Shown one piece after another: positions 24,814 through 43,055 of a DNA stretch of 64,000 nt. The translations under genes were made by a program, and so were the position numbers. The stretch lies in contig WGMH01000004.1 of assembly GCA_016125165.1 (NCBI GenBank), positions 1 to 64,000 on the forward strand, given 5' to 3'. Positions within the stretch are counted from its first letter, which is position 1. Each line of letters starts with the position of its first letter. The notes beneath the pieces were generated by a model, which saw only the letters and a program-made list of their open reading frames with translations, ran no database searches and had not been told where the DNA came from. Origin of the DNA: Alphaproteobacteria bacterium. Lineage in GTDB: Bacteria; Pseudomonadota; Alphaproteobacteria; Micropepsales; Micropepsaceae.

Positions 24814-24875
24814 GGAGGCTGCCTGGCGAGGATTTCAGCCCCGATGCTGACCCGCCTATGCTTACGAGGCGGTTA

Positions 24876-25544
24876 ATGGACGCGCCTGCATCTTCACTGC
24901 AAATCGCCAACCGCCCGATCGAATGGTCGGTGCGCGACGGCTTATTGCCCTATCCCGACGCCGTGGCGTTCATGGAGGCGCGGGCCGCAGCCATTGCCGA
25001 AGGAACGGCATCCGAAATGGTGTGGCTGGTGGAACATCCGCCGATCTACACCGCCGGCACCAGCGCTCATGAAAAGGATTTGATAGACGCGCGTTTTCCT
25101 GTCTTTCAGACCGGTCGTGGCGGCCAGTTCACATATCACGGCCCCGGACAGCGCGTGGGCTACGTGATGCTGAATCTGCATCACAACGGCGGCGATGTAC
25201 GCGGCTTCGTGCACGACCTGGAAGAATGGCTGATCCGGTCGCTGGCCTCATTCAATGTGAAAGGGGAAAGGCGTGCGGGGCGCGTTGGCATCTGGGTGGT
25301 ACGCCCCGATGGCGGAGAAGACAAAATCGCGGCCATTGGCGTGCGTGTGCGCCGTTGGGTGACCTATCACGGGGTATCCCTGAACGTGGACCCTGACCTG
25401 TCGCATTTCGGCGGTATCGTGCCCTGCGGTATTCGCGAGCACGGCGTCACCAGCCTCGCGTCGCTTGGCTTGCCGGTGACCATGGCCGATGTGGATGTGG
25501 CGATGCGGACCGCGTTTGCAGAAGTCTTCGGCGCAACGGCGTAG
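24876..25544 (+). CDS. lipB: Lipoyl(octanoyl) transferase LipB
   Basis: Transfers octanoyl groups from acyl carrier protein to lipoyl domains, the first step of lipoate attachment. The 222-residue protein has [19 protein letters not shown], the catalytic Cys184 in GGIVPCGI and Lys150 in [14 protein letters not shown], with the THYHGVSLN-type strand ([11 protein letters not shown]). The start at 24876 has GAGG six bases upstream and is preferred to the ATG at 24858. lipA is not adjacent. The gene is divergent from fliN and is followed by a 141-base gap and the small peptide gene. Confidence 0.95.
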
Positions 25545-25618
25545 GCCGCACTTTCAGGGAACTCCGTAAGTATCTGAAACGGCTGAATGATCCTCATTCA
25601 AGTCAAATCAACTTTTAG

Positions 25619-25647
25619 TTGCATTACTGAAATATCACCACTATAGC
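25619..25647 (+). promoter_or_regulatory. Sigma-70-like promoter of the small peptide gene
   Basis: TTGCAT (25619-25624), a 17-base spacer, and TATAGC (25642-25647). The predicted transcript would start near 25654 with a leader of about 32 bases before the ATG at 25686. The surrounding DNA is AT-rich relative to the window. Confidence 0.55.
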
Positions 25648-25685
25648 ATGTATCGCGTATCGTATGAATCTGGGGATCAGACCTG

Positions 25686-25823
25686 ATGGAAAATCGCAGC
25701 GAGATGGCAACCCGCGAGCCCGCACCAAAGCGCGCATGGCAAAGGCCTGAACTGACGAAAATGCCCGGCGAGAGTGCGCAACTGGCCAATACCGGCAACA
25801 CAGACAACAACAGCTTGAGCTAG
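25686..25823 (+). CDS. 45-residue orphan peptide, RiPP-precursor-like
   Basis: A short ORF with ATG at 25686 (GGGGAT eight bases upstream) and TAG at 25821-25823. The N-terminal part is charged and contains KRAWQRPELTKM, a W-x-x-P-x-L motif like the Y/W-x-x-P-x-L recognition element of lasso-type and related leader peptides in alphaproteobacteria. The C-terminal part is uncharged except for one Asp and rich in Asn, Thr and Ser (ANTGNTDNNSLS). A Thr-Gly junction could mark a cleavage site. There is no Asp/Glu at the seventh to ninth residue after that Gly, so a classical lasso ring is unlikely. No maturation enzyme is in the window. I do not assign a function. Confidence 0.5.
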   Translation: MENRSEMATREPAPKRAWQRPELTKMPGESAQLANTGNTDNNSLS

Positions 25824-25832
25824 GGCCGCCGC

Positions 25833-26120
25833 TTATAGGGAAGGGCGCCGGTTGAAACCCTTCTCGGCCGGCGGATCGGCGCGATGCAATTCCACATTGC
25901 CGACGCGTGACCCAGCCGGGCCGCGCATGCATTGGGCCACAAGTCCCTCCACGGCCTTGGTCGTCCCCGAACAAAGCACCTCCACAGTGCCATCGCTACG
26001 GTTACGCACCCAACCATCCAGCCCGAGCTTCCGCGCCTCGGCGATCACAAAGTTGCGATATCCGACCGCCTGGACCTGTCCCTCGATGCGCAGCCGCAAG
26101 GTGGTGACTTCTTCGCTCAT
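25833..26120 (-). CDS. acyP: Acylphosphatase
   Basis: A 95-residue acylphosphatase that hydrolyses carboxyl-phosphate bonds. The substrate-binding Arg22 is in GQVQAVGYRNF (family GxVQGVGFR) and the catalytic Asn40 is in GWVRNRSDGTVEV. Length and fold match the family. The C-terminal tail (EKGFNRRPSL) is slightly different from the usual F-x-x-R/Y ending. It converges on the peptide gene, with nine bases between stops. Confidence 0.94.
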   Translation of the reverse strand: MSEEVTTLRLRIEGQVQAVGYRNFVIAEARKLGLDGWVRNRSDGTVEVLCSGTTKAVEGLVAQCMRGPAGSRVGNVELHRADPPAEKGFNRRPSL

Positions 26121-42546: not shown

Positions 42547-43055
42547 GCGAAAGCCTCCAACGCCAAGCGCGTACGCATCTACAGGCGCTCTATATATCAG
42601 CGCCCGTGACGTTGGGATTAAGGATTGGAAGGCCCGCGATCGCGCGGCCTTGCGGATCAGCTGAGGAGGTACCCGTCCAGGCCGGAATTTCTCGTGAAGG
42701 CGGCCAGATCAAGCCCGATACGCTGCACACCGGGGCGCTCCCAAATGGCGCGGGGCGCCTCCTGCATCTCGCGCTGCGGGTGTTCGCAAATATTATCCAA
42801 ACGCTCAATCATGACCCGCTCCGCAACACCCCAGTCAACTCTTGAACTTATGAATACCACACTTCACGAATACAACCAATAGCATGCAAATCGCCCTATC
42901 CGGCAAAGGTGGCGCAAGGAAAACACCGGTAATACAACACGGGAATATCCGGGAATTAACCGTCAGAATGGCGTTGCCACCGGAGGTCCGCCGCGAATTC
43001 GCAGGCGCATCCAATGCGGGCTGCCCACCGGGACGGCGTACCCATGCGGGGCGTC
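42547..43055. other. Intergenic region between degQ and rplQ
   Basis: About 510 bases. The part nearest degQ should hold its promoter. A possible small minus-strand ORF at 42657-42812 is listed separately. The rest, 42861-43055, has many stops in all frames and no structure that I recognise apart from the rplQ terminator at its end. Confidence 0.4.
42657..42812 (-). CDS. Possible small protein upstream of degQ
   Basis: Starting at the internal ATG at 42812 this minus-strand frame gives 51 residues (starting MIERLDNICEHP, ending NSGLDGYLLS) with protein-like composition and a plausible mix of helix-forming residues; the frame extends to an ATG at 42860. No family is recognised and no clear Shine-Dalgarno was found. 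It could equally be a chance ORF. Confidence 0.25.
   Translation of the reverse strand: MIERLDNICEHPQREMQEAPRAIWERPGVQRIGLDLAAFTRNSGLDGYLLS

Follow-up and report, generated by a model that had tools for sequence, protein, structure and literature searches.

The DNA analysed here (the window, 64,000 nucleotides) lies on contig C13 of a genome of 3.04 Mb in 14 contigs (G000). A 288-bp gap (25545-25832) between lipB (24858-25544, + strand) and an acylphosphatase gene (25833-26120, - strand) contains a short open reading frame, ORF 1. The acylphosphatase gene is convergent to ORF 1, and a TonB-dependent receptor comes next. A preliminary description of this DNA had proposed a compact ORF in the gap with a W-x-x-P-x-L motif in its product, and both were borne out, the former as an ATG-started frame of 45 amino acids and the latter as W18-Q-R-P21-E-L23. 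The locus has the following features:

25619-25647, + strand: promoter-like TTGCAT-N17-TATAGC, not above chance
25672-25677, + strand: GGGGAT, weak Shine-Dalgarno-like element, 8 nt 5' of the ATG
25686-25823, + strand, stop included: ORF 1, ATG start, 45 aa, MENRSEMATREPAPKRAWQRPELTKMPGESAQLANTGNTDNNSLS, lasso-type precursor candidate
25737-25754, + strand: W18-x-x-P21-x-L23 (WQRPEL), putative RRE-binding leader motif, read from the sequence
25782-25820, + strand: predicted core, Leu33-Ser45, LANTGNTDNNSLS, its start placed at Pro+12 from the family register and the W at -15 of PbaA
25803-25805, + strand: Asp40, putative macrolactam acceptor, Pro+19, core residue 8 in the predicted register
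25818-25820, + strand: C-terminal Ser45, possible target of an HprK-like lasso kinase; most family matches also end in Ser

The ORF had been credited with its own promoter. This claim failed: TTGCAT-N17-TATAGC agrees with the consensus at 7 of 12 bases, an equal site occurs in 99% of resampled upstream sequences and in 51% of the window's 140-bp tiles, and a stricter promoter scan gave no + strand site upstream of ORF 1. The Shine-Dalgarno-like GGGGAT is present where it had been described but is weak. Counting revealed no motif common to the upstream regions of the precursor genes of this genome (no 9-mer in at least 3 of 13 regions). When the gap was resampled with the same dinucleotide steps, ATG ORFs of at least 45 codons arose in 47% of the resampled gaps on either strand (27% on the + strand alone), and such ORFs bearing [WYF]xxPx[LIV] in 2.2%; therefore, the ORF and its motif alone are weak evidence. 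The codon score of ORF 1 (0.035 per codon) exceeds those of all 73 spurious ORFs, yet just 4.8% of those of 228 real gene pieces, which belonged to the training set of the score. Such low codon usage for a gene is a point against reading ORF 1 as a lasso precursor.

What lies between lipB and the acylphosphatase gene varies within the genus, as judged from 28 relatives in which both genes were found in the locus. In these relatives the slot is nearly empty or holds an approximately 128-codon gene (MPRVSAAFF...), a presumably LrgAB-like gene, a presumably aldo-keto reductase-like gene, or something else. BLASTN detected no real similarity between the ORF 1 gap and the corresponding gaps of the relatives, and the idea that ORF 1 is a decay remnant of a gene occupying the relatives' gap was rejected for this lack of DNA similarity.

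A search of the whole window against Rfam at gathering thresholds returned a single tRNA and nothing else. The ORF 1 peptide had no match in Pfam, NCBIfam or PHROGs; the NCBIfam search likewise misses cluster-resident lasso precursors. In PqqA, the precursor of pyrroloquinoline quinone, a conserved Glu and a conserved Tyr become cross-linked. This pair is absent from the ORF 1 peptide, which contains no Tyr.

The motif [Y/W]xxPx[L/V/I/A/F/Y] characterizes the leaders recognized by most discrete lasso RREs (PMC13381572, in part), and ORF 1 carries it as WQRPEL. Precursor-like ORFs with a [W/Y]xxPx[L/V/F/...] leader were also read at B2 loci. From W to the last residue, ORF 1 aligns without gaps with the precursor of a lasso cluster in genome G099 (WQRPALRKLDARDAELTGLNLTDNAVFS against WQRPELTKMPGESAQLANTGNTDNNSLS), with 12 of 28 residues identical, equal length and a common Asp at Pro+19. 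The G099 precursor adjoins AsnB, HprK, PqqD and B2 genes and was matched at an E-value of 0.019 in a single-peptide search of the family genomes. ORF 1 also matches (E 0.006) a precursor in a lasso cluster, recognized by tblastn, of G359, which belongs to another family of the class. Among 20 minus-strand loci re-read from the single-peptide searches, those of G099 and G359 are lasso precursors and the other 18 look like noise. No orthologue of ORF 1 was found in 60 relatives, 95 family genomes and 384 class genomes (overlapping sets), which is a point against the lasso-precursor reading.

In the paeninodin-like leader of PbaA a W lies at -15 (PMC13381572, in part), which places the core at Pro+12, as inferred for ORF 1. 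The predicted core then has 13 residues, and Asp40 is its residue 8. An Asp or Glu at core position 7-9 closes the lasso ring (PMC10368454, in part), and ORF 1 has one in this range if its core starts as in its cluster-resident relatives. The preliminary description had stated that the core lacks the Asp or Glu of a lasso ring, and it dismissed a lasso identity because it noticed no acidic core residue; this statement is wrong. Its reading of a RiPP leader stands, now in register with cluster-resident lasso precursors, and its term orphan fits the position of the gene; its verdict against a lasso peptide falls with Asp40 as a candidate acceptor. The predicted -2 residue (Pro+10) is Ala, not the usual Thr. 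Ala also occupies this position in the cluster-resident precursors of G099, G027 and G075, and Ile, Val or Ala in place of Thr at -2 has been described for some lasso peptides, Ala for predicted precursors only (PMC10368454, in part).

A position score was trained on 14 precursors read at lasso loci, with the ORF 1 peptide excluded. It placed ORF 1 above all 181 motif-bearing decoy ORFs, and it is imperfect, with 0 to 39 of the 181 decoys scoring above left-out cluster precursors. The top two decoys are themselves precursor-like, one being the second precursor of the G359 cluster and the other the window ORF at 42657-42812 (-), ORF 2. Random peptides bearing the motif were also scored, 100,000 for each of two GC contents, and none reached the score of ORF 1, whether the motif columns were counted or left out. 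In a six-frame search of the window (1333 segments), an HMM profile built without ORF 1 recovered it at an E-value of 1.4e-6, second after ORF 2, which was in the training set. A profile without any peptide of this genome (E 9.4e-6) and a profile of nine cluster-resident precursors (E 0.0021) both ranked ORF 1 first of the 1333 segments and ORF 2 second, with the caveat that some profile members, even apart from those of this genome, had been found using a profile containing ORF 1. With both window ORFs left out of the profile, ORF 2 was matched in the window at an E-value of 7e-4. A DNA pattern scan for WQ[RS]PE[LF]TK in GTDB genomes, which may omit the window's own genome, gave 15 stretches; all were set aside, ten with the frame shown being unlike precursors and five lying in frames of more than 250 residues.

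The profile of nine cluster precursors (A3) was also searched against the whole of G000 and gave 15 matches at E≤10. Two of these are cluster precursors. Another seven look like precursors and lie elsewhere than in the window (E 5e-4 to 0.7), four are unlike precursors on reading, and the remaining two are the window ORFs, matched weakly and partially (E 0.32 for ORF 1 and 0.77 for ORF 2). The scattered precursors of this genome are listed below:

C13:25686: ORF 1
C13:42657 (window 42657-42812, - strand): ORF 2, 51 aa, MIERLDNICEHPQREMQEAPRAIWERPGVQRIGLDLAAFTRNSGLDGYLLS, second stand-alone lasso-type precursor candidate, predicted core FTRNSGLDGYLLS, Asp at Pro+19
C8:795043 and 795390: two precursors just downstream of genes resembling rpsF, rpsR and rplI
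C8:659041: one precursor
C8:519412 and 519564: two precursors in tandem
C2:232130: one precursor

ORF 2 is flanked by genes that we take, from their sequences, to be rplQ-like on one side and degP/htrA-like on the other. In total, G000 contains at least eight scattered precursors, in addition to the clustered ones. Around the scattered members, tblastn found no lasso gene (9-10 kb read for each, and the whole window for those on C13). An ABC-transporter match near C8:659 looks generic, and the nearest AsnB match, at C8:699691, lies approximately 40 kb from C8:659041, shares 27% identity with the G099 cyclase and is not close to lasso cyclases.

It had also been claimed that no maturation enzyme lies nearby, and a check for PqqD-like maturation proteins elsewhere in the genome had been proposed. 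The claim holds for the window, where tblastn with 14 lasso-locus proteins (E≤1e-3) found none, and no match to PF13471, PF05402 or PF00733 in this genome falls on the window's contig. The check turned up PqqD-like proteins, and B2 and AsnB too. In the usual arrangement of lasso genes, which is no part of the chemistry itself, the RRE, B2 peptidase and AsnB cyclase genes stand beside the precursor; this is not so for ORF 1, and such genes lie on other contigs. PF13471 (B2) and PF05402 (PqqD/RRE) each occur three times over the cut-off in G000, and PF00733 gives five AsnB-type matches. According to NCBIfam, all three B2 proteins are lasso B2 (over cut-off) and the C8 PqqD is a lasso PqqD (82.5 against a cut-off of 80); the other two PqqD proteins have the lasso model as best match below cut-off, and three AsnB proteins (C2, C7) have the lasso cyclase as best model, below the curated cut-off. 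The lasso genes (RRE, B2, AsnB, HprK-like kinase) are spread over five loci:

C2:775-781.6 kb: AsnB, Y-type precursors, PqqD, B2, HprK-like, sulfotransferase
C7:98.7-104.5 kb: two precursors; two AsnB proteins with 50% and 53% identity to the cyclase of G099
C8:143.5-146 kb (L072:6509-9055): HprK-like, PqqD (RRE), SAM methyltransferase
C11:16.5-20 kb (L071): B2, ABC transporter, NTP_transf_5
C11:80.6-84.6 kb: PqqD, W-type precursor, B2, HprK-like; no AsnB found

The HprK-like genes at C2, C8 and C11 were identified by tblastn, the C11 protein being over the Pfam cut-off and the C8 protein below it. Both a C-terminal Ser (Ser45) and an HprK-like kinase gene in the lasso loci are thus present in this genome, and phosphorylation is predicted. 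Within the 16 kb read at the C8 RRE locus, no B2 or AsnB was detected by tblastn and no clear precursor was found; a short WRKPCL ORF near it (L072:4162-4266) was set aside by eye. This locus may belong to a separate RRE pathway or form a loose part of the lasso machinery.

Two further arrangements were observed. The satellite loci L071, L114, L118 and L119 have a lasso B2 and an ABC transporter, with an NTP_transf_5 match in L071, L114 and L118, and no AsnB or PqqD match in the stretches read. In four genomes (G099, G028, G083 and G000), the gene for a conserved protein with a signal sequence, as judged by eye, lies close to the AsnB cyclase gene, and it is conceivable that this protein is a partner or target. 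Its genes are located as follows:

L116:3163-4275: signal-sequence protein near AsnB
L249:9515-10480: signal-sequence protein near AsnB
L230:8684-9676: signal-sequence protein near AsnB
L255:11275-12267: signal-sequence protein near AsnB

The census of the precursor family used a profile (A5) of 26 rows and 28 columns, from Pro-6 to Pro+21, which includes ORF 1 and the sisters found with it. At E≤0.05 it produced 52 matches, spread over 14 of 96 family genomes. Two features outside the profile were read, the C-terminal end being read for all 52: a C-terminal Ser occurs in 46 of the 52 matches, 24-27 residues follow the Pro in 45, and both features are combined in 44. Of the 28 matches outside the training set, 21 have both. 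An acidic residue at Pro+19 or +20, a column that belongs to the profile, is found in 46 of the 52. In genomes with a B2 peptidase (E≤1e-8; just 13 of the 96), 43 of 47 matches have both end features, against one of five elsewhere, and this single exception (G083) adjoins AsnB. Matches at E≤1e-3 occur in nine genomes, eight of them with B2 (hypergeometric 8e-8), a count that takes in precursors beside B2.

Members away from recognized lasso genes were found in five genomes (G000, G099, G021, G028 and G082), all among the 13 with B2 (5 of 13 against 0 of 83; approximately 2e-5, calculated by hand). The other eight B2 genomes have no scattered member, which counts against the lasso-precursor reading. 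The enzyme searches near scattered members by tblastn covered approximately 1-1.5 kb on each side for most and more for some. Because the G099 genome is a single contig of 5.0 Mb, the scatter seen there is no artefact of assembly. A distance of 47 kb or more separates nine of its members from both of its B2 genes, and tblastn showed no lasso gene within approximately 1.5 kb of them. The thirteen scattered members of G021 are all off the contig of its B2, two of them within longer open frames, of 296 and 475 codons. A hand list of 30 dispersed members, all ending in Ser, excluded weak feature-less matches and four members with long or unclear upstream frames; one entry, G099:23969, was later found beside AsnB and PqqD, and the counts over the 52 matches are more reliable.

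The profile was also run on 385 class genomes, where at least 21 matches reached E≤0.005; they fall in 10 genomes, with nine in G000. Scoring covered the best 21 first-look candidates of each genome, so that class members may be missed. Some class matches stand beside lasso genes (G137, G359); the locus reading covered the class matches other than those of G150 and G398. Family members were also observed in a large-genome genus of another family (L246, L247 and L248, from G255, G127 and G352). Around the matches of G255, G127, G352 and G189, tblastn found no lasso enzyme within 6-10 kb beyond generic ABC matches, and on these sequences the genus of G255, G127 and G352 may have scattered precursors too.

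Signs of selection were found in the family. In the group ending in GPEILILLS, G099 and G027 differ by 17 synonymous codons and 1 non-synonymous codon over 29, and in pairs involving G021 or G000 replacement differences exceed synonymous ones. Two scattered members of G082 on different contigs (L231 and L232) have diverged leaders, an identical predicted core LRRHGSPDLTVNS, and the same 20-residue leader-core piece, in which 11 of 20 codons differ by a count on the printed DNA; since the residues are identical, all DNA differences there are synonymous. The preliminary description had asked for a check by synonymous-biased substitutions; the comparison was possible for these family relatives, and its outcome speaks for the family, ORF 1 having no orthologue among the genomes searched.

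Judged from sequence, ORF 1 is very probably a gene, and it belongs to a precursor family with at least eight such members in G000 and with enzyme genes on other contigs. We consider it likely that ORF 1 encodes a stand-alone lasso-type (paeninodin-like) RiPP precursor that is matured in trans; its translation, serving enzymes, cleavage site, ring and threading, phosphorylation and biological role are as we infer them. The leader would bind a discrete PqqD-type RRE through W18xxP21xL23, and the HprK-like kinase may phosphorylate Ser45. The B2 cysteine peptidase would cut after Gln32, the AsnB-type cyclase would join Leu33 to Asp40 to give an 8-residue ring with a five-residue tail, and an ABC transporter would export the product. 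Several further points count against this reading: the enzyme-free window, the Ala at -2, the sub-cut-off scores of the AsnB proteins and of two of the three PqqD proteins, and the weak whole-genome match of ORF 1 to the profile of nine cluster precursors. Stable threading of a lasso would normally call for a tail longer than five residues, or one with bulky residues, which this tail lacks. It is therefore doubtful, and a branched-cyclic or linear phosphopeptide is possible. The likeliest partners would be the C11 RRE, which has a W-type precursor as neighbour, or the C8 RRE, in combination with a C7 cyclase. Binding of non-cognate leaders was found for one actinobacterial RRE, while Bacillota RREs distinguish W from Y (PMC13381572, in part). 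The kinase PadeK phosphorylates the C-terminal Ser of its precursor (PMC9266682, in part).

A precursor read by the same RRE system may instead yield a non-lasso product, namely a linear peptide that is C-terminally phosphorylated or otherwise tailored. Linear polyphosphorylated peptides with a Y/WxxP leader motif and a kinase exist, and the LPPs resemble the ORF 1 family in their RRE-read YxxP leader and phosphorylation (PMC13381572, in part). The C8 locus, with RRE, HprK-like and SAM methyltransferase genes and no B2 or AsnB in its 16 kb, the C-terminal Ser of 46 of the 52 matches and the short plug-less tail after Asp40 also fit such a product. However, the ORF 1 peptide lacks the LPP leader consensus YxxPxVLxHQxIxFETxxS (PMC13381572, in part), the acidic residue at Pro+19/+20 recurs across the family (as a profile column), and the closest cluster-resident relatives, those of G099 and G359, are near an AsnB cyclase. 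We regard this alternative as unlikely. A little less likely still is that ORF 1 is a lasso-precursor copy, now decayed or silent, that once moved here and lost its expression or maturation. The low codon score, the weak promoter and ribosome site and the lack of an orthologue agree with it, but the ORF is intact, with the family features in register through the last residue, and the scattered G082 pair suggests selection on the peptide in at least some scattered copies. A chance ORF, whose motif turned up because one was sought, is very improbable: the 47% and 2.2% rates, the empty database searches and the instability of the slot are in its favour, but the position score, the random-peptide test, the held-out E-values, the C-terminal Ser and length in register and the presence of ORF 2 elsewhere in the window all disfavour it.

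As a lasso-type precursor, ORF 1 is most like the paeninodin-like peptides, which have a discrete B1/RRE, B2, C and an HPr-kinase-like kinase. It shares with them the WxxPxL leader, the W at -15 (PMC13381572, in part), the acidic core residue 8, the C-terminal Ser, and HprK-like kinases and NTP_transf_5 proteins in several related loci. It differs in its stand-alone precursor gene, enzymes spread over five loci, Ala at -2 and 13-residue core. The bsf cluster encodes a phosphorylated lasso peptide whose -2 residue is Ile. This peptide is similar in its YxxPxL leader, kinase, Asp8 ring and non-Thr -2 residue, whereas it has Pro at -14, is phosphorylated at Ser3 and has a clustered precursor, against a predicted Pro at -12 and a stand-alone gene for ORF 1 (PMC10368454, in part). 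The prochlorosins and synechococsins, class II lanthipeptides made by ProcM/SyncM, have many precursor genes, which can be scattered over the genome, clustered in some cases and alone in others, for one promiscuous enzyme (PMC10783134, in part); the ORF 1 family would be arranged in a like manner. Their chemistry and leader are unrelated and their phylum is different, and the modification of many substrates by one enzyme, reported for them (PMC10783134, in part), is predicted for the ORF 1 family.

Lone scattered precursors far from their finishing enzymes are not the normal arrangement of lasso genes. Among the open-access papers on lasso peptides that were listed, we found no report of dispersed lasso precursors, which does not prove that none exists, and none of six related terms occurs in a 2026 review. 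Lasso genome mining seeks precursors beside B and C genes, and scattered precursors would therefore be missed. On balance, we favour a dispersed lasso library, in which scattered single precursors (at least eight in G000, nine in G099 and thirteen in G021) with varied cores and one leader grammar are served in trans by RRE, kinase, peptidase and cyclase genes, themselves spread over five loci in G000. If true, this would be the lasso counterpart of the prochlorosins. Maturation in trans, if it occurs, would mean that a single enzyme set yields many distinct lasso-type peptides from scattered genes, providing a natural library for studying substrate tolerance and leader reading, and the role of such libraries would become testable outside cyanobacteria.
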